A stretch of 64,000 nt of DNA from Urechis unicinctus (lineage: Eukaryota > Annelida > Polychaeta > Xenopneusta > Urechidae): positions 56,754,945-56,818,944 of the forward strand of contig CM067343.1 in NCBI GenBank assembly GCA_034190875.2. The letters are read 5' to 3'. The notes under the pieces were generated by a model. That model had not been told where the DNA came from. It searched no databases and was given only the letters and a program-made list of their open reading frames with translations. Shown one piece after another: positions 6,036 to 64,000 of the stretch (position 1 is its first letter; each line of letters opens with the position of its first letter). Position numbers and translations under genes: made by a program.

Positions 6036-6135
6036 AGACAGAGAGAGATGAATAGATATAGGCATTAGAGCCAGTGAGAGAGAGAGAGAGAGAAAGTGGC
6101 AGATAGAGGGACAAGAGACAGAGAGATTTTGAGTT
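5941..6135. repeat. GA-rich simple repeat
   Basis: Interrupted (GA)n/(GAGAGACA)n purine tract. It lies in the older copy of family B, whose sister copy near 7480-7510 lacks the tract, so the GA expansion arose after the duplication. Confidence 0.8.
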
Positions 6136-6360
6136 AGATACACACAACAATAGATATATAGATATATAGATAGGATATATATATCAGATAGATATAGGCT
6201 AGGATATGTTGGCTACACAGTTCCTGTTTTCGAGGTCAGCGCCTGTCGACAATAACTCTGCCAAAAAAATATCATGAAGATATGCAGGCCGTAAACCGTA
6301 ATATCCTCGACACTAGCATTCACGCCTTCAATGTTTGTACGTATTTAGACAAGAGTTATC

Positions 6361-6645
6361 GTGTTATGGTCAGAGAAAAAACACGGGGACAACATAAATA
6401 GCATCATGCACCCCTGCTACCTGTCGAAATTGATTGATCAGCAGAAACATTCAAGGAATCTTCGATCAGCTGGCAAACATCTGGTGAAAATTCTTAAATC
6501 TGACCTTCTGCGATGGCACAGCGTTTACAAATGCCGCACCAAGCTCTATATCGCCATCCGCAAGTTGAATACACTTGACACATTTAGATATAATCTCATT
6601 CATTTATTTTTGTTCAATACAATAATCATATCAAATTCGACGTAA
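6361..6645 (+). pseudogene. Relic of a non-LTR retrotransposon RT C-terminus (tentative)
   Basis: A 94-codon frame has the spacing of the extreme C-terminal region of many CR1/jockey-type reverse transcriptases. An LRSAG segment is followed by a block ending in an IRKLNTLDTFRYNLIHLFLF-like helix, where intact elements show LWNSLP..IR..SL..FK..LK..LF. The LWN motif itself is not preserved, reading roughly KLYIAI. No fingers/palm catalytic residues lie upstream, so at most this is a truncated LINE tail. It lies between copies of repeat family B. A chance frame is a real alternative. Confidence 0.35.
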
Positions 6646-7510
6646 TATTTTCAAACAATTAACTGCGAACTCCATTGCCTTTGGGCAGGCAGGATATTCT
6701 CCTGGAATACTTTGTTAATATGTATGCATGAATGCAATTGCGTTTCCTTTAATGAATGCCTAAGGCATATTAACATTACCATGAAGAACTTTCTGTAAAA
6801 CGTGGAATCTGGAAACTTCAAATCCTTCATCGTTGAGCATTAGAACGACAGTTCTTTTGTGTAAAGAAAGCGTCTGCTCTAGATTTAACGGTCAGGCCTA
6901 AAGTAGGTCACGTCTTGCATACGTTTTGTTAGAACAAAAAACAAATTATGCAGATTGATTATTAAATAGAATAAACAATCACGTAGATAATTGTCTAACG
7001 TCTAACATTCATGCTGTCACAAGGAACATTCGATGGTAAAGCACTCGCCTATGAAAAAGCTCTTGGTGGCCACTGTTTACTAAAAAACTGCAATGCATCC
7101 GGGTGGAATATTCTGGGCTGTGTATTTACTATGATGCTAAGAGCAAGCCACCGTTCGACAAACAATGAAGCGAAAAACTGAAAAGAGTGACCCAATTATA
7201 ACAGATATTGTTCTTCTTGAGAGCACTATGGGCAATTTAATTGCGGGCTATTTAATAATTATCGGACAAGTTATGAATTGGATAAATTGTGCTTTGATGC
7301 ATTTACATTATGTAGGTCGACTTTGACAACGTATGTGTTGTGCTTGTTATGCTGCAACTCGGTGATTGTTATGGTTTAAGTTGAATATGCAGGACATAAT
7401 TTACAGTGACAGAATATGCCTATATAATAAAGCAACTTTACCTAGGCTAAACTGAAGTTACTGCCAGCAAATTCCACATTGCCCATTTTAAACATCAGAA
7501 GGCATTGGCC
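6625..7510. repeat. Dispersed repeat family B, copy 3
   Basis: Collinear with 4965-6035. Shared landmarks in order are CATATCAAATTCGACGTAAT, AAACAATTAACTG, CTTTCTGTAAAAC, AACAAATTATGCA, GGAATATTCTG, GCACTATGGGCA, TTTAATAATTATCGG and ATTTTAAACATCAGA. It is in direct orientation with the earlier copies, about 1.6 kb downstream. No coding capacity. Confidence 0.65.
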
Positions 7511-7612
7511 AGTCAAACGAAAGGCATTCAAGGCCAGCTGAGAGCTGAGAGACGGTGGCGCAGCGATAGAAAAGTTTTCCGATTTTGATAAACATAAAAC
7601 AATAACAACATA

Positions 7613-13286: not shown

Positions 13287-14758
13287 AGAAAATAATCCTG
13301 AAAAGTTGACAATCTGTCATGATAGGTAAAAGAATCGATGGTTTAAGCGTGTCACAAGAAGGAATGAAGCTGGTAGGGGACGGAGTTTACGAATTGGTAT
13401 CTCGTGGACCGAGCAGTAGAAGCGATAGGAAATGATTGGTAAGATAAAGAAGGAACAAAGCGTGACCACAACTGATTAGATGGAGCTTATTGTCAGCCGT
13501 GAGCTACTGAGTGAAGGATAATGACAATGAAAAGATCATATAAAGTCACAAAGCCTGCATTGTTTCTTTCATAAATGATAATTCGGTTAATTGTTGGAAG
13601 TGATTTACATTAGTCCGCGAAATTGGTTAATCTGTTCTTTGAATACCGATCTACTTGCTAAACGCCAACGTGGGCCAGCAGTAATGGTTATATGCGTATA
13701 TCATGATGAGTAAAAGAGACTGTTCAGCCCCATATAAGGCAATCAGGGATCATTTCGTTATTACATTACTACGTTTAACACAGACGTAAGTAATGCCATC
13801 TTCTAATTTGTGCCGCAAAGTTTACATGATGGAAAATTATGTTGATTAGTTTTTAACATTATTATTTGACTGGAAATATTCATGATCTAATGTGGAAATC
13901 TGTTTTATTCAGCTATGTAGTTCCATCGATAACGGTGTCTCCCTAAAACCATGAACTACGCGAATGTTAGCTGTAAATTAAACGCGCTCAGAATTTACCT
14001 CGCTATCGATGTGTATTCTTCCGCTTTGGTTACATAATGTAGATTTCATCAAATCTTCACTCATTCAAGTTGTGGGCATCTTTGCGCACACATTACACCG
14101 ACAAGAAGGAAGGTTAATGCCCGACATCATAAATGGCGACAGCCGAAGTAAGGATCTATTTTCTGAGACCACAGCGCCGCGTAGCGACTGAAAGTCTAGA
14201 AACTTTTGGTTTCCAAGGTGCGGTTGCCAAGCAGCTTGCTAGTCAACCTCATTCCAAATAAGAGGATGAACAGTCTCTTTAATTCAGTTAATATTTGTTT
14301 TGTAGCGTGAATCCTTTTTTTGATATCTAGTGATGATATTTGTACGCTTCAATGCTACAGAATGCGAGGCCAATATGTTGGTTTGTTTATTACATACATA
14401 GTATCATTCGCTATATAAACTCCATTGACTACAAACGACGGAATTTCAAACCCTTTATTGCCGAACTCATTTGCTGTAGCTTGTTCTGGCGCCGCGTGAC
14501 TGCTATAACCATCGTTTGACGGCAGGTGGAAATTGCATATTACCATTCACTGAACGTATTTGCACTGTACGAATGCGATACTTTAACAACGTTATCCGCT
14601 TGTCTTCTAGGATTCGCTCATGATTGTGTTCCATGTCTCTTGCCTACAGATAAACGCAACTAGAAATAGACATCCAACACTTCGTGCTGATTGTGGCAAA
14701 CTAATACAATTTGATGTTATTGTCGGCAGCAAAGCAGCTCATTTGTTTGACAGACTAT

Positions 14759-14762
14759 TTAA
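14759..14762. other. Target-site duplication, left (TTAA)
   Basis: TTAA borders the element on the left and again at 18027-18030. The uninterrupted copy B has a single TTAA at 63157-63160. Because TTAA is palindromic, a TA duplication with an outer AA/TT in the repeat fits equally well. Confidence 0.8.
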
Positions 14763-14782
14763 AGGTCAACTACAAAGATTTT
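14763..14782. repeat. Left terminal inverted repeat
   Basis: AGGTCAACTACAAAGATTTT. It pairs with the right end (AGGTCAACTACAACGATTTT read on the minus strand from 18026), with one mismatch at position 14. Confidence 0.9.
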
Positions 14783-14945
14783 TTTTATTCCATTTTTCCA
14801 AAGTTCTATGTTTTAAAAGGGTATCGTGACCAAAATAAGGTGATTGCGCGCTTTTTTTCTTTACGAAAAATGATTTTTAAATGAATATTTCCCACGTCAC
14901 ATCTGACAAGATACCGCTCGGTAAAATTCGTGAATTTCCGTACAG

Positions 14946-14953
14946 TGACGTCA
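14946..14953. promoter_or_regulatory. CRE-like palindrome near left end
   Basis: TGACGTCA (in CAGTGACGTCATTC) lies about 185 bp inside the left terminus and about 100 bp before the transposase frame. The same octamer lies near the right end at 17813-17820. TGACGTCA is the classical binding site of CREB/ATF bZIP factors. That it drives the transposase is inference. Confidence 0.45.
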
Positions 14954-15041
14954 TTCAGGTTGTTTGCGAATATTCATCTCCTTCTTTAGCCTTCCCGGTT
15001 GGTTGACAGCGTTTGACTAACTCGTCTTTCTTCACGGTCTG

Positions 15042-16592
15042 GTGCGTTTCTTGGTGTGGATTATTCCTTATTGTTGTGCGTTTGGTTGTCGGAACAATGA
15101 GAAGTCAGGCGTGATTTTTTTTGTTTCTAAAAGACATATGCGCCGCATATGGGTGTCGAAAGTCAAGCGTAAACACTGGAGTCCTGTCCTTTTCGTTATA
15201 CGACAGTTCTATGTTCTGATCATTTCGAGAAAAGTGCTTATGAGACTGACCCAGAGCTGCTCAAAAGTCTAGGATTTCGTAAGAAATGGTATTGGCAGCT
15301 GAGCAGATAGATAAATCAAGTGACAGTGGTGAATCACAGACTGAGGTGTCACACTCAAGTACTGCCGACCTAGGCTAGGCGAAGAAACTTCGCCTGTCAG
15401 CGTCCGCGCTGTTTGCTACACCAGGGGCGAGTGCCTTGCCGTCTGCCGACCATGAAGCTTGCTCTCACTTGTCATTAGGGGTGCAGACAAATGTTTTGGT
15501 GAGTGTCACAAGGCAACTGCATTATTATATATGATGAAATGCATTGGCAGGGATAACTTCTGTTGTATGTATCCATGAGTCAATTTGTAAACATTTACAT
15601 CCTTAAAGGCTATGATGAATGAAATTGTAGCATACTTATTGTATTGATTCCATAGATGGCTGACAAGTCTCTACAGACACAGAGTTCTCTTTCCTGGGAT
15701 AAAGAAATATTCAAGAGGTACCCAAGTTGGACCATCTCACCAAAAGTGTCACCAGGGGCACCCAATATGAGCCCCAGGAGGAATCTGTTGGACTGGTGGA
15801 CAGCGATGATGAGATGGAAACTGACCCTGACTATGACTTCACTGACGAAGTGATGATGCTGAGATGGAAACTGATGATGACATGGCGTTTGAAGAACTGT
15901 TAGGTAAATATTGTTCTGTTTGTAGTGTAATCACAGGGTTTTATTTGATGGAAGAAAAATTTAGCTCACAGAATGCTTATGTACAGTGGTGTTGATCTGG
16001 AGGATGGCCCTAGTCAGAATCAAAGATACTGGGAGAGTTTTGCTTGTTTTGAACAAATCGGCGTGAATGGACACCGTAAGATGTGGGATTGCCAACTTTT
16101 TACAGGAGCTATGCCCGCAGGGAATTTGTTTATGGCTTCAGGGATTTTTGTTATTGGCAGTAGTGCTATTAGAACACTGAACTGTTCAGGTATGGGAAAA
16201 TCCCAAGCCTGTCAAAGTACCAATTTCTTTTGGTGTGAACATGCATTAATCTAAAATGAAACACATGTTATTTTGACATTTATTACCAAAACCTGAATAA
16301 GTTTCATTTGCACAAACATTGTTACCCAATTAAAAATTGGCATATAATATAACTAACTTATTATATGACTACCATAAAATATGAATATCATTGATTTGCT
16401 TCAGACTATGTACATCAGGTGCTTCATCTAAGGCAAAAATACCCAAGCTACCGACTTGCTGAGGTCCTTGCAGATGACAGGACTGTCCCACCACCTATAG
16501 CCTCCCAGTACGAGAAACCTGAAAAGGATCTTCTCGTAGGTGCTCACAGGTGTCGATTCAACCTGATCAAGAAATCTTCCGCTCCATTGTAG
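15042..16592 (+). pseudogene. THAP-domain transposase relic (Kolobok-like)
   Basis: The first exon encodes an N-terminal THAP zinc finger: CCAFGCRN near the start, a W-S-K-V-K-R-K-H-W-SP block, then, after a one-base frame change near 15190, CSDHFEKSAYETDPELL, which carries the final Cys and His. A GTGAGT donor follows near 15498. A second exon (from the AG at 15654) encodes an acidic linker, DSDDEMETDPDYDFTDE, in a shifted frame. An exon from about 15973 reads GHRKMWDCQLFTGAMPAGN, matching the GHSRVW.SQP...PAGN core that precedes the catalytic region in THAP transposases. A last exon (16405-16592) ends YEKPEKDLLVGAHRCRF plus a stop at 16590. An in-frame TAG, at least three frameshifts and loss of most of the DDE core make this a pseudogene. 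Assigning the last exon to the same gene is tentative. Confidence 0.75.
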
Positions 16593-17714
16593 ATAATCTG
16601 TATATTTGCCGCCCAGGTCAGGGAAGGATTTTCTAACAGCTGTTACCACACAGGCTGCCAGCACTTTCCTGTTTCTTTTGCCCAGTCTGTGCCATATCCA
16701 GAGTGTAAACTGGCGGTAAGCTAGATACCTGAATAATCTGAAGCACTATGTCAATTAGTTGTCTATGGTTTTAAAATAAGTTGTATAGTTAAAAAAACAA
16801 TTGTCATTTGTCAACCATTCCCTCACTTCATAATTTTATTGTAAGCTCTACCTCTGGATTTCATGTAACTGGCATTATTTATTCTTGGCGATGTAAAATA
16901 TATTGTAGTTCATCAATATGAACACTGAATATTTTACACAGCGGGATTGATGTTCCCTTAGCAATAAATATGATTGTTCAACCTCAAACCATCCTTTTTG
17001 GTAGCAATAATGGCTAACTTACTCATTGTAGAGACCTCATCTCCAACAGGTCTGTCCATTTGAATAGATTCAAATTTGGACACTTCCAGCACATTTTTAT
17101 TCATGCAGCTAGCCAGGAATCTGGGATGCTTGGTGATGCATGTCCATTCCTCCGTTAGAGCCATCACTCTCTCCAAACTTCTGTGGCTGTGTCCAATGGG
17201 ATGCAGTAGTGACATCTACACCTAAGTTAGAGAAATAATTAAAGAGTCATTGTAAATTTTTATATTTGTGGTACAATGAATGAATATAAAAGGAAAATAC
17301 TTTATAAACTGCATGCAAACATCTGTCCACAATATTCAATGTGCTCAGGGTACAATGACAAAGCTACATTCACTAGCCAAGTACTATTTGTTGTAGTAGT
17401 TAGGTCTGTCAACATACCATCCTCAACTTACAGAATGTGTAAATTTATTGGGTAAATGAAACTAACGATTATTTTTTACCAGTTAATATAGTTCAATAAA
17501 GCTTGGGAAGGGTATTCTAAAACTTCCCATTCATCGAAATCTTTTGTTGATTCTTCATCCGAAGCGGACCCTTGAGTTAGACTCCCTGTGTCATTTCGTA
17601 GTGTGACTTGGATTTTTCAACTCCCGTCCGTATTGGCTCAAATAAATAGTCATAGACATGATTTGCCCCAATGTTATGCTATGGGGACTCGTAAACTTTA
17701 TCAAAAGACGACAT
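16578..17714 (-). pseudogene. P2X7 ballast-domain-like protein relic, three exons
   Basis: Exon 1 (from ATG at 17714) encodes VYDYLFEP and, in a shifted frame, an acidic SASDEESTKDFDEWE stretch. Exon 2 (17215-17023, AG acceptor and GTAAGT donor) encodes CHYCIPLDTATE, then WTCITKHPRFLASCMNKNVL. Exon 3 (from 16728) encodes YLAYRQFTLWIWHRLG, then VLAACVVTAVRKSFP and GGKYTDY. The order C-x2-C, C-IT-HPxF-xx-C, AYR, C-x7-RKxFP-xxxGxY matches the zinc-binding intracellular C-terminal domain of vertebrate P2X7 receptors and its free-standing invertebrate relatives. There is no transmembrane segment or P2X channel domain. Damage includes a stop in exon 1, a frameshift in exon 2, and loss of the Cys pair after the first C-x2-C. 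Its position inside the terminal repeats suggests it is an accessory gene of the transposon. Its function is unknown. Confidence 0.75.
17563..17583. repeat. 21-nt block shared with copy A right flank
   Basis: A 21-nt block starting AGCGGACCC and ending TTAGACT is identical at 17563-17583 (inside the ballast-like gene) and 18484-18504 (outside the transposon). Copy B lacks it at the matching place near 63640. Confidence 0.85.
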
Positions 17715-17812
17715 GGCTTGTCAAAACGGTGTAATTTTAAAATCCAAACAATCGTTTTTCACTTCGCTCGCTCGCTCGCAGTAAAATTCTCTTGGAGGCA
17801 GCGCAGCAGGAA

Positions 17813-17820
17813 TGACGTCA
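17813..17820. promoter_or_regulatory. CRE-like palindrome near right end
   Basis: TGACGTCA about 207 bp inside the right terminus and about 100 bp upstream of the minus-strand ATG at 17714. It mirrors the site at 14946-14953, so each of the two inward-facing genes has one such octamer in front of it. Confidence 0.45.
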
Positions 17821-18006
17821 CGCAACGTGCACCTAGCGGCCAACTGAGGCAAAATGGCATCGAGAAGATGGCTTCGTATTTTCTTCCGAATGAAACTTTA
17901 TCGGTGGATTTTTAGTACTTATGCATGCCGTTGCAATGAATTGTGGGTCCCCGTTGGTTTATGAGTTATTAATCTTTAATTTGAAACACATTATAAAGAA
18001 ATGATG

Positions 18007-18026
18007 AAAATCGTTGTAGTTGACCT
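18007..18026. repeat. Right terminal inverted repeat
   Basis: Reads AAAATCGTTGTAGTTGACCT on the plus strand, the inverse of the left end. TTAA (18027-18030) follows directly. Confidence 0.9.
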
Positions 18027-18284
18027 TTAACTGTTGGATAGTAGTGACCTCTATCTGTTGTTACCCGCCACAATACGGGTCTTGTTTATCGGCGCCACCT
18101 GGCTCTAATTGTTTGTTATATGTGTAGCAATTAAAAACCCCTTCCAGTGATGGCGAAGCACGATGATTTGACTTTTTTTAATCGTGCCCTCATCATGGCA
18201 GAAGGAGGACCTCTAACATTAACTACTGTTTTGATTATCTAATAAAAGCGTCATCTATCACGGAATAGGAAACAATTCGACACG

Positions 18285-18285
<1 letters not shown>

Positions 18286-18371
<86 letters not shown>

Positions 18372-18392
18372 AGTGTGTGCGTGTGTGTGTGT
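18286..18392. repeat. GT microsatellite in copy A
   Basis: About 107 bp of (GT)n with a few interruptions at its right edge. The matching array in copy B (63406-63542) is about 30 bp longer, the main length difference between the copies apart from the transposon. Confidence 0.97.
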
Positions 18393-18642
18393 ACGTTTAT
18401 GTATGTCAGTTACAGGTATCACAAAATGCACGGTTTTAAACAATACGACGCGTTCGACTTGCAAACAAGACTTAAGTAACTTTAGCGGACCCTTGAGTTA
18501 GACTTTAGTTATCGGCTCCGTTGAGCAAATTGTACATTTTTGCTATGCAGTGACCTGTATATTCAGAGCAATATCAGTATGGCACGAATAAGTACATAAT
18601 TAATTACCTGTTATTAGTTAAAGCCCCATGTGGGTCCGGGGG

Positions 18643-18650
18643 TATATAAG
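18643..18650 (+). promoter_or_regulatory. TATA-box-like site in the duplicated block
   Basis: TATATAAG sits between two GC-richer flanks (GGGTCCGGGGG before, ACCCGCTG after), unusual in this AT-rich setting and typical of a TATA core promoter. It is conserved in copy B at 63783-63790. The region about 30 bases downstream (CTGCATTTCGTTAGAG) would be the start-site zone. No gene can be read downstream, so this may be the promoter of an unrecognised element or noncoding transcript. Confidence 0.35.
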
Positions 18651-18885
18651 ACCCGCTGTATCCTCCTGCATTTCGTTAGAGTTTGCATTGTGTTGCATCT
18701 CGTGTCATTGGATGTCATCTAGAAGAGTGTGGGAATATCCTAGTCCACTAAATTTTTATATATTTTCCCGTTTCGTGTTTATTTTCATCGACGTGGGTTT
18801 CCCATTTGTTTCATTTAACTCAAAATGTGGCTGCTCAATCAGGTTAATCTTTTATATTTGCTCTTCTTTTGTAGGCACGATATAA

Positions 18886-37109: not shown

Positions 37110-39405
37110 ACCTGCGTCGTTGCAAATTTGTTTCAGATCACCGAAGCTGGTCGATTGACTGATATCAAATATATACTTAATGTGTATTGTGAATGACTAC
37201 ATTCGCAGTCATTTGATACATGTGCGTCAATCGATTTCGCCAATTGATGGCCATGCGACTAACACCTAATAAACAAATAGAAATCAAGTAGCAATTATTA
37301 TCAGTAATTTTCCATCGCATGTGTACACTGTGTACGTACCTGTGAAAATTTTAGAGAGATGTTGTAAACAACTTTCACCACAAAAGGGTAACAAATGCAC
37401 ATGCAATGCGTCATGGTATTCAAGGCACTCACTGTAAATGACAGTCATACCAGTACTATATTAGTATTCCTCGGCTTGTCTCTAAAGGCTGACACATTAA
37501 CGCAAATACCCCTACAGTAATCAATAGGATTTTCATTTCGAAATGCCTGATTGCCAATATCTAATATGCCAATATATGCATGAAAGGGGCATGAGTCACA
37601 ATATCCATCTTGCATATGAGGAGTTGATCTGGGCGCTCACTGACAACATTCAACGCTTTCCATGTCGCTTTATCACACAAAAGTGGATCGTTCCTGTACA
37701 TCACTACACCGCCTGTCACAAATAAATGACGTACATACACATCACATGTTATTGATGCATAGTCTCGTCCCAATGTGAGAAAAATATTGCGTTAACATAC
37801 ACTTAAGCAGCGGCATATTGCATTGGCAGCCCAATTCACACCTTCGGCCATCAAGTTATGCTGTTAAGATAAATTGGGTGTTAAATCCATTTTCATGCTT
37901 GGAACCTACCTGTCGCTGTCTGCCGTTATATCCGTGAGCGATAAATTGACCAGTGTGTCGTCGCGCTTACCACCTAGAAGGCAATCTGAGCCGGGGGTGG
38001 AGGATCAAAATTCGCATTGGTTTTTTTTATGTCATCCCATGGTGGGTTTTAATGAGGTCTTATTCCTGGAATTATTGCTAAGAACAGGGCGTGCCACGTT
38101 AACGAGTATTTATACAGACGTCGGCGCATATACGGCTGATGCCACTTTGTCAAGCTTAATATACAGTGTTTATTAATCGTGAGGTTAGGCAAAACATACC
38201 ACAGTGCGATTAATGACCATGAATCATTCAACCTCATGCATCTCAAGTCAAGGTCATCAAGAGCCATAAACAACACTGCACTGAAATGTTCCGTGCTGCT
38301 TATTTAACATTGCCATGAGAAAACTGTAGCAAAACCAATTATCTAACAGTATTTAATACTTACTCATGACAAATTCTTGCCACACGCTGTCAAGTGCTTG
38401 CTGCTTAATACTACTATTGTTCTACAGCTGAAGTTCTGCCAATTCGTATAAGATAATACAATACGCCATCGTATACCTTTGTATTTGTACGCAGCATACA
38501 AGGTGATACACTTTTCTGACTCGCAGTAATGCGTTTAACATTTCGCCAAACAGTTGCAACATAACTTCCTGTGTGCTAACAAGATTACTCTATGGCGAAT
38601 TTCGGCATTTTGTCCCGTCTGATTGCTTATCGAGAACTTCGTCTTATGACAGGTCATAAATCATTAGACACATGTCTTGGTCATGAGCATATTATGCAAA
38701 GCAATTGTATGTAATGAACATATATCTCGCGAGATTATTACTACTGATTACAATAGTTTGACACATCAAAATGACAAATGGGTTTCAAATTAACGCCCAG
38801 TTTGTGTTATTTTGGCATATGCAGTTTTGTTTAAGTAAATAAACGACATGTGTAAAACCGGTAATTACATTTCAGAATAACTATGACTCTGCCTATTTTG
38901 CTCAAACCATCGTGACCACTGTAAAAGGGCAATTACTTTGGAAATAATCAAAAAGCATCAGTAAATATTGTTTTCTATACGGCTTACAGTCACACCATGC
39001 TTAGGTCAATATGTCTTTACCATACGCTAAATGAATTATCATAATTACTTCCTTATGTATATAGCCTGCTATTTCATCTCTAGACAATGGTAAACTATCC
39101 CACCGCATTTACTTCGTGGAGAAGCCATGTGCAATGAAAACGAAATTGTCACTTACCCATTTAATCATTCCCTCATTGTGGATAGAACTGATTTGTTGTC
39201 CGAATGGGGCATCACATTAGACGTTTGATTTAATGTGTGATATAGTGAATGACGGTACAGCACCACTGTCGAAGCCAATACAATTTAATTTATAAACTGC
39301 AAACAGCGAATATGCAAAGATGCAGTATGACAAAATACCCTCCCATAAAATCTAAATCCGTACTGAATAAGTGGGACAGGATATAGTCATTGACTGGTCA
39401 CAGTT
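37110..39405. repeat. Inverted dispersed repeat, left arm
   Basis: This segment matches the reverse complement of 49285-50575. Landmarks are GTCGTTGCAAATTTGTTTCAG (here 37116, inverse at 50545), TTCGCAGTCA (37203), ACTTACTCATGAC (38381), ATACAATACGCCATCGTATACC (38457), GTTGCAACATAA (38551), ATTCGGCATTTTGTCC-type (38600), CATTCATCGAAGCC-type (39265) and ATAGTCATTGACTGGTCA (39382). The left arm is about 1 kb longer because of an extra segment around 37250-38270. No coding capacity. Confidence 0.75.
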
Positions 39406-49285: not shown

Positions 49286-50575
49286 ATATGTTGACCAGTC
49301 AATGACTATGTCCTGCCCCTGCATCCAGTACGGATCTACATTTTACGGGAGGGTGTTTTGTCATATTGCATCTAAGCATATTCGCCGTATGCAGTTGACA
49401 AATGAAATCAGATTAGCTTAGATTTTTGTATTGGCTTCGACAGTTGTGCTTTACCGTCATTCATAATGGCATACATTTAAACAGATATCTAATGTGATGC
49501 CCCAATTCTAATGCAAATCATTTATATCGTCAATTAGCGAATGATTAAAAAGGTAAGTAACAATCTCCCTTTCATTGCACATGGCTTGTCCACTAAGTTA
49601 ATCTGGTGGGATTGTAAACTATTGTCATAAGCTGAAATCGCACGCCATATACAAAAGAAAGTACTCATGATAGTTTATTCACCTTATGGTAAACACATAT
49701 TGACCTTAGCATTGTGTGATTGTAAGCCGTATTGAAAACAATATTTACAGATGCTTTTGATTATTTCCAATGCAAAGTAATTCCATTTTTACAGTGGTCA
49801 TGAGATTTCGAGGAAAATTGTCAGAGCCATAGTTATTCTGAAATGTAATTACCGGTTTTGCATATGTCGTTTATTTACTAAATCATATGCATATGTCAAA
49901 ATAACACCAGCTGGGCGTTAATTAAAAACCATTTATCATTATGATGTGTCATACTTTTGTAATCTAATCAAAGCAGTAATAATAATCTAGCGAGATATAT
50001 GTTCATTACATCCAATCGCTTTGCATAATATGCTCATGACCGAGATTAATCTAATGATTTATGACCTTTCATATGATGAGGTTCTCGATGAGCAATCAGA
50101 CAGGACAAAAGGCCGAAATTCGCCATGGAGTTACCCTGTTAGCACGCATGAATTATGTTGCAACTGTTTGGCAAAATGTTAAAAGCATTCCTGCGACTTA
50201 GAAGAGCTGATTACCTTGAATACAGTGTACAAATACAAAGGTATACGATAGCGTATTGCATTATCTGACACGAATTTGCAATTCTTTAGCTGCAGCACAA
50301 TTGAAGTATTAAGCAGCTAGTACTTGACAGCATGTGACAAGATTATGTCATGAGTAAGTAAAAAATAATGTTACATAAATGATGTTGCTTAAGTTGTCTC
50401 ATGCCCATTATAAATAAGCAGCGGTATAGATAGACGCACGTGTATTAATTGACTGCGAATTTAGTCAGTCATGGTAAACATGAATGAGCAACTATTTGCT
50501 ATCAATCAATCGATCAAAAAAGTTAACGTTCAGGTGATCTGAAACAAATTTGCAACGACACAGTTGTTCGCTTTA
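49286..50575. repeat. Inverted dispersed repeat, right arm
   Basis: Reverse-complement relative of 37110-39405. It begins TTGACCAGTCAATGACTATG (39400 inverted) and ends CTGAAACAAATTTGCAACGACA (37116 inverted). The arms are clearly diverged, so they are old copies of an unidentified dispersed element and not a recent hairpin-forming palindrome. Confidence 0.75.
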
Positions 50576-57134: not shown

Positions 57135-59535
57135 GATTTCTCGTGTTGGAAAGTTGATCAACTGCGGAATTTTTTGAAGGATAGAGGAGTTACCACGACG
57201 GATTACCGGCGTCAAGCTTTAGTTAAACTTGCGGAGTGTGCAAATGGACTTAATTTGCCCTGTGATCCCGACTTCAGTCATGTTAGTGAGAAGCCCGACG
57301 ACCGTTTGGAAAAATTTGGATTGCCCCCGTGCTCGGATGCTAGTTTGCAGTTCTCCACTGACTTTTCTGTGGTTCCGGAGATTACTCTCTACGACATTTT
57401 TAACTATTTAATAGCATCGCGCTCTGATTTCGACAAGAGAAAAGTCAAAAGCTACAAGTCTTTCGAAGACTACAGACTTTTTGCCGATGGTCATGTGCTC
57501 CAGCTAGAGTTTTGCCAGGTGACCAGCCGAGGGAGGGAAGGGTGTGTTGTGTTGCTCGTGGCCGAGTAAAGCCAACATGCAAGGACAAAACATACCTAAA
57601 GACTGACTCATACCAAGCCTGGATTGCTATTGACTGTGAGCTGTGCGAAGTCCTCACAGCCTTCTGTGAATGCCAGGGAGGGTGAGTTGAAATTAATTAC
57701 TGTTTCAGTTTGCACCTGATGCATTATAAATATCTTACTCAAGATAATATTCTAAACATTAAAATAGCCTGAAGCTCCATCCATAAACATGGTCTAACAG
57801 CCCCATAATCAGCATCTTTTGTAGTCCAAATAGTGTAGGGTATATTGTGAGTGTTGTGCTAGATAATGTATCATAAAAGTGCTGCAAATTATTTTGCCAT
57901 GTTAAATGGGGAATAGCATGTGTGTTTTACCCCTCTCGTCCCTGATTTCAATATGTTATATTTTTCACTTCATTGTTTGTTTCATAGGGCTGATGGAGCA
58001 TGCCGTCACGTGTCTGCCATGCTCTATGAAGTTGAATCCTTCGAAAGGAAATCTTGTACTGATGGGGCCAACCAGTGGGCAAGACATTCAAGACAGCATG
58101 ACCATCCTGTGCCAGTACAGGATATGACGATTCGAAGTGTGAGGTGAGACAAATATTTTGGTTCATTTGAGACAACATTAGCTGTATTTATCCCAAGCTA
58201 AAGTTGTCAGTTAGGATTATAAAGACTATGAATAATTCCTACTATCATTTTTGTATCTGTTCTAGGTATAGAACCACCCTCGAATCACCGCTTGGTCAAA
58301 AAGTTGATGACTTTGACCCTCGTCACCCAAGTGACAGGTTGCCTGCCTCAGAAGACCAGCTACAGGGCCTGGCACACCAAATTAGACAGGTATGGATTAA
58401 ATGCTTCAGTTGACTGCACATATAGGGAAAAAAATTGCATAAAGTTTTATTTGTTTAGAACTGATTGTACAGAATAAATAACTGCAGAATTGTAAATATG
58501 CAACCAGAATTTAGTAACTTTATTGATTCTTTCTGTTGAACAGATTAGCCCTCGCGCTCAAGTCCTCGAAATACTGGAGGACCCAAGTAAGCACATGTCT
58601 GAGTCTCCAGCGCCAGAGCCCACATGCCTCTCACTGGGTGTGCTGGCTAGAGCTAAAGAGTTTGTTGGGCAGATCATTGAGTCTGCTCAAGCCATACCAG
58701 GAGAAACTACAGTTACCTGCACTGCAGATGATTTCGTCAGATTTTTCAAATACACCCCCGCTGAGATTCAACTCATTGCTTCGGACACTGAAGGGCAAGC
58801 TGAAAACTCTGCCTGGCATGCAATGAGGCGAGGAAGAATAACAGCCTCAGTGTTCACCAGGTGTGCACCAGGATGCACACCATTGTGAACCAACCAGACA
58901 CTGATCCATCTGTTCTCATTGCCAAAATAATGGGGGACAATGCACCAGTTACTACGCCAGCTCTCGAATGGGGTCGCAAGAAGGAGAAGTGTGCCCGTTC
59001 GTTATACGCCACAGTCAGTAGAAAGATGCACAAGCACCTTAAAGTTGATACAGCAGGACTTCTTGTGTCTTCAGACAGACCCTATATGGCGTGCTCTGCT
59101 GATGGCATTGTGACTTGTTCATGTCATCCCAAAAGACTACTTGAGATCAAGTGCCCATACGCAATGAGGAAAAAACATCCGCGATTGGCAGCCATGGAAA
59201 AAGGGTGTGTTGAAAGTGAAGGTGGGGTTCTTCAACTCAAGCACAACAGTGCTTACTTCACACAAGTACAGGGACAGATGGGAATTTACGGTTTGCATAA
59301 TTGTGACTTTGTGTTGTACACAATGAAAGGAATCCACATCATCAGTGTACCCTTTGATAAAGAAAAGTTTGAAGAAATTGCCTGCAATATGTCACTTTTT
59401 TTTTTCATCATTTCTGTTTCCAGAAATTATAAAGTTGGCACAGCAATAGTGTTCTTGTTTTTTCTGTGGATAAATGTTTTGATGTATAGTTTGTTTAAAT
59501 TTATAATATTTCTTTTCATGTTCCTGTCGTACTAG
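57120..59535 (+). pseudogene. SAP-SWIM-YqaJ nuclease gene of the transposon, lightly damaged
   Basis: Exon 1 (57120-57681) starts at MSDKTDFSCWKVDQL, a SAP DNA-binding motif over roughly the first 40 residues, and ends with the first half of a SWIM zinc finger. Exon 2 (57988-58143) completes it, giving CECQGGADGACRH across the junction. Exon 3 is 58266-58389. Exon 4 starts at 58544. All junctions have GT/AG signals. Exon 4 holds the YqaJ-type nuclease: RRGRITASVF, ALEWGRKKE, then the PD-(D/E)XK-like core CSADGIV (Asp) and LLEIKCPY (Glu, Lys), and a downstream TQVQGQMGIYG. Two single-step frame breaks are visible, near 57530-57555 and at about 58860 (beside a CACCAGG duplication). The hydrophobic C-terminal tail after about 59390 is probably unspliced intron. 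The likely role is DNA end-processing or recombination linked to transposition (inference). Confidence 0.8.
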
Positions 59536-61683: not shown

Positions 61684-63156
61684 GAGAAAATAATCCTGAA
61701 AAGTTGACAATCTGTCATGATAGGTAAAAGAATCGATGGTTTAAGCGTGTCACAAGAAGGAATGAAGCTGGTAGAGGACGGAGTTTACGAATTGGTGTCT
61801 CGAGGACCGAGCAGTAGAAGCGATTGGAAATGATTGGTAAGATAAAGAAGGAACAAAGCGTGACCACAGCTGATTAGATGGAGCTTATTGTCAGCCGTGA
61901 GCTACTGAGTGAAGGATAATGACAATAAAAAGATCATATAAAGTCACAAAGCCTGCATTGTGTCTTTCATAAATGATAATTCGGTTAATTTTTGGAAGTG
62001 ATTTACATTAGTCCGCGAAATTGGTTAATCTGTTCTTTGAATACCGATCTACTTGCTAACCGCCAACGTAGGCCAGCAGTAATGGTTATATGCGTATATC
62101 ATGATGAGTAAAAGAGACTGTTCAGCCCCATATAAGGCAATCAGGGATCATTTCGTTATTACATTACTACGTTTAACACAGACGTAAGTAATGCCATCTT
62201 CTAATTTGTGCCGCAAAGTTTACATGATGGAAAATTATGTTGATCAGTTTTTAACATTATTATTTGACTGGAAATATTCATGATCTACTGTGGAAATTTG
62301 TTTTATTCAGCTATGTAGTTCCATCGATAACGGTGCCTCCCTAAAACCATGAACTACGCGAATGTTAGCTGTAAATTAAACGCGCTCAGAATTTACCTCG
62401 CTATCGATGTGTATTCTTCCGCTTTGGTTACATAATATAGATTTCATCAAATCTTCACTCATTCAAGTTGTGGGCATCTTTGCTCACACATTAGACTTAC
62501 AAGAAGGAAGGTTAATGCGCGACATCATAAATGGCGACAGCCGAAGAAAGGATCTATTTTCTGAGACCACAGCGCCGCGTAGCGACTGAAAGTCTAGAAA
62601 CTTTTGGTTTCCAAGGTGCGGATGCCAAGCAGCTTGCAAGTCAACCTCGTTCAAAATAAGAGGCTGAACAGTCTCTTTAATTCAGTTAATATTTGTTTTG
62701 TAGCGTGAATCCTTTTTTTGATATCTAGTGATGATATTTGTACGCTTCAATGCTACAGAATGCGAGGCCAATATGTTGGTTTGTTTATTACATACATAGT
62801 ATCATTCGCTATATAAACTCCATTGACTACAAACGACGGAATTTCAAACCCTTTATTGCCGAACTCATTTGCTGTAGCTTGTTCTGGCGCCGCGTGACTG
62901 CTATAACCAACGTTTGACGGCAGGTGGAAATTGCATATTACCATTCACTGAACGTATTTGCACTGTACGAATGCGATACTTTAACAACGTTATCCGCTTG
63001 TCTTCTAGGATTCGCTCATGATTGTGTTCCATGTCTCTTGCCTACAGATAAACGCAACTAGCAATAGACATCCAACACTTCGTGCTGATTGTGGCAAACT
63101 AATACAATTTGATGTTATTGTCGGCAGCAAAGCAGCTCATTTGTTTGACAGACTAT

Positions 63157-63160
63157 TTAA
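63157..63160. other. Empty TTAA target site
   Basis: Single TTAA in GACTATTTAACTGTTGG. The same flanks enclose the transposon in copy A, so this is the pre-insertion or precisely restored site. Confidence 0.9.
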
Positions 63161-63404
63161 CTGTTGGATAGTAGTGACCTCTATCTGTTGTTTTACGGGT
63201 CTTGTTTATCGGTGCCACCTGCCTCTAATTGTTTGTTATATGTGTAGCAATTAAAAACCCCTTCCAGTTATGGCGAAGCACGATGATTTGACTTTTTCTA
63301 ATCGTGCCCTCATCATGGCAGAAGGAGGACCTCTAACATTAACTACTGTTTTGATTATCTAATAAAAGCGTCATCTATCACGGAATAGGAAACAATTCGA
63401 CACG

Positions 63405-63542
<138 letters not shown>

Positions 63543-63782
63543 ACGTTTTATATATGTCAGTTACAGGTATCACAAAATGCACGTTTATTTTAAACAATAC
63601 GACGCGTTCGACTTGCAAACAAGACTTAAGTAACTTTAGCCATCAAAGTTATCGGCTCCGTTGAGCAAATTGTACATTTTTGCTATGCAGTGACCTGTAT
63701 ATTCAGAGCAATATAAGTATGGCACGAATAAGTACATAATTAATTACCTGTTATTAGTTAAAGCCCCGTGTGGGTCCGGGGG

Positions 63783-63790
63783 TATATAAG
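63783..63790 (+). promoter_or_regulatory. TATA-box-like site, copy B
   Basis: TATATAAG with the same GGGTCCGGGGG upstream flank as 18643-18650. The downstream base changes ACCCGC to GCCCGC, but the TATA core is unchanged. Confidence 0.35.
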
Positions 63791-64000
63791 GCCCGCTGTA
63801 TCCTCCTGCATTTCGTTAGAGTTTGCATTGTGTTGCATCTCTTATCATTGGATGTCACCTAGAAGAGTGTGGGAATATCCTAGTCCACTAAATTTTTATA
63901 TATTTTCCCGTTTCGTGTTTATTTTCATCGACGTGGGTTTCCCATTTGTTTCATTTAACTCAAAATGTGGCTGCTCAACCAGGTTAATCTTTTATATTTG

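Follow-up and report, generated by a model that had tools for sequence, protein, structure and literature searches.

The DNA analyzed here (the window, a 64,000-nucleotide stretch of the Urechis unicinctus genome) includes, between two inverted repeats, the remains of a gene related to the cytoplasmic ballast domain of the ion channel P2X7. The question raised by this locus is whether the domain belongs to a transposon family as one of its own components or is a host sequence that a transposon happened to meet. The earlier note inferred the former, suggested that P2X7 may have acquired its tail from such an element, and knew of no description of the pairing of a transposon with the P2X7 ballast. 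Both the pairing and the suggestion on P2X7 were already in print in 2022: in the account that Kojima and Bao (2022, PMC9587614) give of the Kol0 lineage of Kolobok transposons, the second protein, KolX, is clearly similar to residues 476-595 of human P2X7 and has the ballast fold, P2X7 is proposed to have originated when a P2X4-like gene fused with KolX, and nanor is a likely domesticated KolX. The first point was pursued below, and the coordinates of all features are collected in Table 1.

Insertion with TTAA duplication and its natural empty site

The description of the segment as a Kolobok-like element enclosed by matching terminal repeats and TTAA duplications was borne out almost to the base. 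The inverted arms (14759-14794 and 17995-18030) have 36 nt each and 83% complementarity, and TTAA is found on both sides. As a control for chance, the first 16 bases were compared at all TTAA pairs of the window located 1-8 kb apart, and a left end had to contain at least three kinds of base to count as a hit. The inner ends of the element's pair match at 15 of 16 bases, and this was the sole pair with at least 13 of 16 matches among 19,064.

The window also includes a second version of the flanking DNA. For the left flank (13287-14762), a match of 1476 bp with 98.1% identity lies at 61685-63160; the right flank (18026-18860) has its counterpart at 63156-64000, with 91.0% identity in a gapped alignment. 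In this duplicate the element is absent and both flanks meet at one TTAA. Since the flanks are joined at a single TTAA without the element, these results directly demonstrated an insertion with TTAA duplication, and the duplicate is its natural empty site. The empty site may instead have been produced by precise excision of the element from the second flank copy, or the flank duplication may be an assembly artefact. The segmental duplication itself (13287-18860 versus 61685-64000) comprises copies about 45-48 kb apart that are 98% identical to the left of the element.

Table 1. Positions in the window of the element, its gene remnants and the empty site
Feature	Positions	Strand	Basis or remark
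Probable Kolobok-type (Kol0-like) non-autonomous transposon	14763..18026	+	3264 bp
Left TTAA target-site duplication	14759..14762	.	Single TTAA in empty site 63157-63160
Right TTAA target-site duplication	18027..18030	.	Direct reading and empty site
Left terminal inverted repeat	14763..14794	+	Starts AGGTCAACTACAA
Right terminal inverted repeat	17995..18026	-	Inverted-repeat search
Remains of a THAP zinc finger, split over two frames; presumably the N-terminal part of a former transposase gene	15072..15247	+	PF05485, below cut-off
Open frame, possible further transposase remnant	15949..16254	+	Repeated in genome
Last exon of ballast (KolX-type) gene remnant, YLAYRQF...CVVTAVRKSFPDLGGKYTDY	16428..16745	-	PF20478 E 9.3e-6; local ballast profile E 6.8e-14
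Zinc-finger exon remnant, CRCHYC followed by CITKHPRFLASC in another frame	16958..17226	-	Motifs and local profile; continuous in L004, L005 and L007
Relic of a presumed first exon; VYDYLFEP and the acidic stretch lie in separate frames	17527..17660 (approximate limits)	-	Motif level only
Flank duplicate without the element	61685..64000	+	Empty target TTAA 63157-63160

The duplication seen at the empty site is the 4-bp TTAA of the Kolobok superfamily, and the element reads AG...CT at its ends, in agreement with the 5'-RR...YY-3' termini of that superfamily. TTAA duplications are compatible with the piggyBac superfamily too, and in its treatment of KolX the paper by Kojima and Bao (PMC9587614) mentions a few piggyBac families with a KolX-like protein. 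A piggyBac element carrying such a protein is nevertheless an improbable explanation, because the 5'-AG...CT-3' termini obey the RR/YY rule that, according to the same source (PMC9587614), distinguishes Kolobok from piggyBac, and because the element includes THAP-like pieces.

Gene remnants inside the element

The minus strand carries VYDYLFEP, an acidic stretch, CHYC, CITKHPRFLASC, YLAYRQF, CVVTAVRKSFP and GGKYTDY, that is, all the peptides that had been assigned to a three-exon relic. The number of exons is presumed, and the first of them is recognized at the level of motifs. As had been proposed, the order of the peptides resembles that of the C-terminal domain of P2X7, and the suggested profile search of the exons against the corresponding family gave a significant result for the last one. 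ORF 16428-16745 matched Pfam PF20478 (P2RX7_C) with E 9.3e-6 and 26.1 bits, the gathering cut-off being 23.5, and a local ballast profile, derived from 11 ballast frames without stops in the same genome and run against the 2887 ORFs of the window, matched this ORF at E 6.8e-14. The pieces with CHYC and CITKHPRFLASC are collinear with the local profile (positions 16-29, 33-61 and 80-128); taken alone, they scored below significance in that search (5.6 and 3.9 bits). Broken in the window copy, they form a single open frame in three of the nine other aligned copies (L004, L005 and L007); even these frames score low with the profile (9.0 bits at best). Since L004 and L005 have flanking sequence in common, these continuous frames probably stem from two independent insertions. 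The exon with VYDYLFEP was matched by no profile, and a YRFEP motif located upstream of another ballast-like fragment of the genome, in L046, bears a suggestive resemblance to it.

The set of seven conserved zinc-binding cysteines is incomplete in the window copy, where the CC pair is missing. With the frame broken and the CC pair absent, a working ballast protein is not expected from this copy. When the window exon alone was compared with solved structures, P2X7 was found at E 0.37 and 0.59. The best matches in that search were flavivirus polymerase chains (E 0.065-0.22), with no stretch passing alone. As these results were too weak to use, the open relative L041, described below, was compared in place of the window exon.

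On the plus strand, two frame-shifted pieces resemble the THAP domain (PF05485), namely ORF 15021-15272 (E 0.00096) and ORF 15173-15310 (E 0.06). Both are under the Pfam cut-off, and neither Pfam nor comparison with the transposase-like frames of the relatives described below revealed a DDE core or other transposase match (DDD/E and C/DxxH signature) in the window copy. The open frame at 15949-16254 is repeated in the genome (at least 150 matches scored, from 1179 candidates) and has no match in Pfam or among the transposase-like frames of the relatives.

A chance resemblance, in which accidental open frames had arisen within an ordinary short repeat, would be compatible with the weakness of the first and zinc-finger exons when each is considered alone and with a plus-strand frame that matches nothing. 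However, for the last exon it is already refuted by the E values in both profile searches, and the pieces have the order and strand expected of the ballast domain. This explanation can be regarded as negligible.

Copies of the element and relatives of the ballast domain

Comparison of the whole element with its own 1.19-Gb genome gave 54 matched pieces, window copy included, a count that comes from the best 40 scored of 1920 candidates. Among these pieces, 28 are at least 3 kb long. The last ballast exon is covered by 42 of them and the zinc-finger exon by 41; the remaining ones are shorter. The window copy (L001) and the nine best others were aligned. They depart from the majority sequence by 0.8-1.7% and from each other by 1.9% on average (range 0.7-2.7%), figures that describe the near end of the family, as the copies were picked as best matches. 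The majority sequence is itself interrupted, which indicates that the defects are largely shared and that the amplified form was already non-autonomous.

The exact 24-base termini occur 246 and 253 times in the genome (499 in total), while the reversed patterns used as a control occur 0 and 0 times. Among the 100 places listed, 18 neighboring pairs of ends point toward one another at distances of up to 20 kb; one of these pairs, at 17.9 kb, was set aside. The facing pairs closer than 5 kb, again among the places listed, are spaced 3158-3363 bp in 15 of 17 cases, and the other two are spaced 2675 and 4594 bp. Two loci were picked for their plus-strand frame. The first, L057, is another copy of about 3.33 kb. 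The second, L058, of about 2.7 kb, has lost the stretch matching 16653-17135 and with it parts of both main ballast exons, so the gene remnant is not whole in every copy. The pair spaced 4594 bp, the left 2.7 kb of which was read as L059, carries some 1.3 kb of inserted sequence around position 450 of the family. As candidates for the autonomous parent, L057, L058 and the 4594-bp pair were ruled out by their length of about 3.33 kb, their length of about 2.7 kb and the insert of about 1.3 kb, respectively, and no autonomous parent with the same termini was found in the copies examined (L057, L058 and L059).

The segment at 14763-18026 is therefore a decayed member of a non-autonomous family whose copies, where read, are short and have the same fossil fragments. 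The earlier note had asked whether the ballast-like gene always lies inside the repeats of sibling copies. The last ballast exon is found within the inverted repeats in all ten aligned copies, window copy included, and the loss in L058 is partial only. Thus neither of the outcomes that the note had named as refuting it, siblings devoid of the gene throughout or exons with no significant profile match, was observed. The claim that the transposon carries a ballast-domain gene has to be restated, however: a remnant does lie inside the repeats, but the copy is decayed and non-autonomous and the gene is not a working one.

The ballast domain is not restricted to this family. A search of the genome with the PF20478 profile found 2591 candidates, from which at least 150 matches were scored, each of them above the cut-off; the same profile had zero matches in 14 control genomes. 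Eight strong matches without an internal stop (L041-L048), with scores that reach 106 bits, were taken as relatives, and 9.9 kb was read around each. TTAA and inverted repeats appear to bracket five of the eight (L041, L042, L043, L045 and L048), and the bracketing repeats fall into a AGAGGCTGTTCAGCC-like and a AGGTGCATTT-like kind. Such a bracket was not found within the 9.9 kb read for L044, L046 and L047. A frame with the motif DG(R/S)xDSPG is present on the strand opposite to the ballast gene in four of the eight relatives (L042, L043, L044 and L047), and bracket and frame occur together in L042 and L043. We take this motif to be that of the Kolobok transposase, and its presence beside ballast genes is a further argument against the piggyBac explanation. 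The relatives that have these transposase-like frames have termini different from those of the window element. In Pfam, the L043 frame gave sub-threshold matches to Mutator and to Stereocilin, and two pieces of the L044 frame gave nothing. Among solved structures, the ballast frame of L041 matched P2X7, aligning with residues 470-593 of the chains (E 4.2e-18). The cysteine motifs CxCxxC, CC, C and SCC are kept in L041, and CxCxxC, CC, C and SCM in L042.

Some other features were observed around the relatives. L046 has a second, different ballast-like fragment (6127-7551, minus strand; YTAYRQFVRWCWGHLGQ), the one preceded by YRFEP; an open ballast frame lies next to it on the opposite strand, and the ORF of the fragment has no Pfam match. 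An open frame in L048 (642-1130, plus strand), also with no Pfam match, seems to resemble capsid-like proteins of invertebrate mobile elements. When the ballast alignment A1 was compared with viral contigs, 51 pattern hits were obtained and 0 were confirmed.

These findings bear on the possibility that a host ballast gene of the nanor-like type was captured by a transposon or was hit by one through chance. In their sections on stand-alone ballast (ZCD) domains, Rump and others (2020, PMC7016195) describe fewer than 10 per species, encoded by ordinary short genes with some conserved linkage, and few of the 150 matches listed here were read in their context. However, the structure of the copies contradicts a host gene: all ten aligned copies have the last ballast exon between their repeats, two more kinds of TTAA element harbor the domain (transposase-like frames accompany it in one of them), and at least 150 scored matches over the cut-off (2591 candidates) are many for a host gene. 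Capture or a chance hit of a host gene is thus very unlikely. The inference of the earlier note that the domain belongs to a transposon family was instead supported by the ten copies, by the P2RX7_C match and by the relatives.

Relation to Kol0 elements and to the P2X7 tail

The segment is best explained, with a probability of roughly 90%, as belonging to a Kolobok family of the Kol0 type that is non-autonomous, internally deleted and present in many copies. This reading draws on the empty site and its TTAA duplication, the inverted-repeat control, the counts of termini, the P2RX7_C match, the low divergence among copies, the brackets and frames of the relatives and the published identity of KolX as a ballast protein. 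Weighing against it are the lack of a DDE core, THAP matches below the cut-off, the fact that a parent was not found, three of eight relatives without a bracket, the weak zinc-finger exon and the loss in L058. The second protein that marks the Kol0 lineage, KolX with its ballast domain, is present as a remnant. The Urechis family shares with Kol0 Kolobok elements, as these are described for the Kolobok-1_XT type (PMC9587614), the TTAA duplications, the 5'-RR/YY-3' termini and a KolX gene with a ballast domain like that of P2X7; it differs in being short and non-autonomous and in its broken KolX gene, and the window copy yielded no DDE core.

Compared with the cytoplasmic ballast of P2X7 (PF20478; PDB 9e3m, 6u9v and 8tr5), the order CxCxxC, later C, AYRQF, FP and GxY is the same, and L041 and L042 also keep the CC pair. 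By eye, L004, L005 and L007 have CY in place of the CC pair, which the window copy has lost, and SCC is changed to AAC. Unlike the domain of P2X7, the remnant sits on a transposon with no ion channel. Elsewhere in the genome, 15 matches to the P2X channel (PF00864) were found at about four places, all on contig C15, and no fusion of ballast to channel was detected, as all 150 listed PF20478 matches are more than 4 Mb from the PF00864 matches. Stand-alone ballast and nanor-like proteins are likewise short metazoan proteins ending in a ballast domain, and one Ixodes frame joins a THAP (printed "TAHP") domain to it (PMC7016195). In contrast to the at least 150 scored matches of this genome, they are given as fewer than 10 per species, and the sections of that paper on them do not mention transposons (PMC7016195). 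The domain is thus far more abundant here than reported earlier, and the raw sequence of another genome backs the published view that the P2X7 ballast is a transposon-borne domain. The concept linking transposon and P2X7 is already in print; what is new is only this family, its empty site and the abundance of the domain.

A pathway can be proposed for the origin and spread of the family. The ancestor would have had two convergent genes, one for a THAP-DDE transposase and one for KolX, and a master copy would have lost the transposase core before it was amplified. Kolobok transposase made elsewhere would act in trans by recognizing the inverted repeats, excising the element and joining it into TTAA in a cut-and-paste reaction. 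In the weakest step of this scheme, KolX may serve the transposition complex as an accessory zinc protein and, through a zinc-folded, ballast-like structure, act with the transposase on DNA; our confidence in this role is low. Internally deleted P elements act as repressors of their parent transposon. By analogy, the deletion family might keep the THAP end and part of KolX since short products once repressed the parent; in that case KolX would regulate transposition, and the tail of P2X7 would be a regulator captured from a transposon, an idea that we consider very unlikely.

The window has other features of interest. KolobokE elements are described as carrying a lambda-exonuclease-like nuclease (PMC9587614). 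A YqaJ-like exonuclease frame is located at 58496-59532 on the plus strand (PF09588, E 1.1e-16), and a piece upstream of it matches viral alkaline exonuclease (PF01771, E 1.9e-5). The frame was not found to be enclosed by any TTAA inverted-repeat pair with at least 11 of 16 matches, and nothing ties it to KolobokE. Finally, inverted repeat arms of 270 and 333 nt, with 83% and 81% complementarity, are found in 38295-39283 and 49426-50422, about 10-12 kb apart, and are possibly another element pair.
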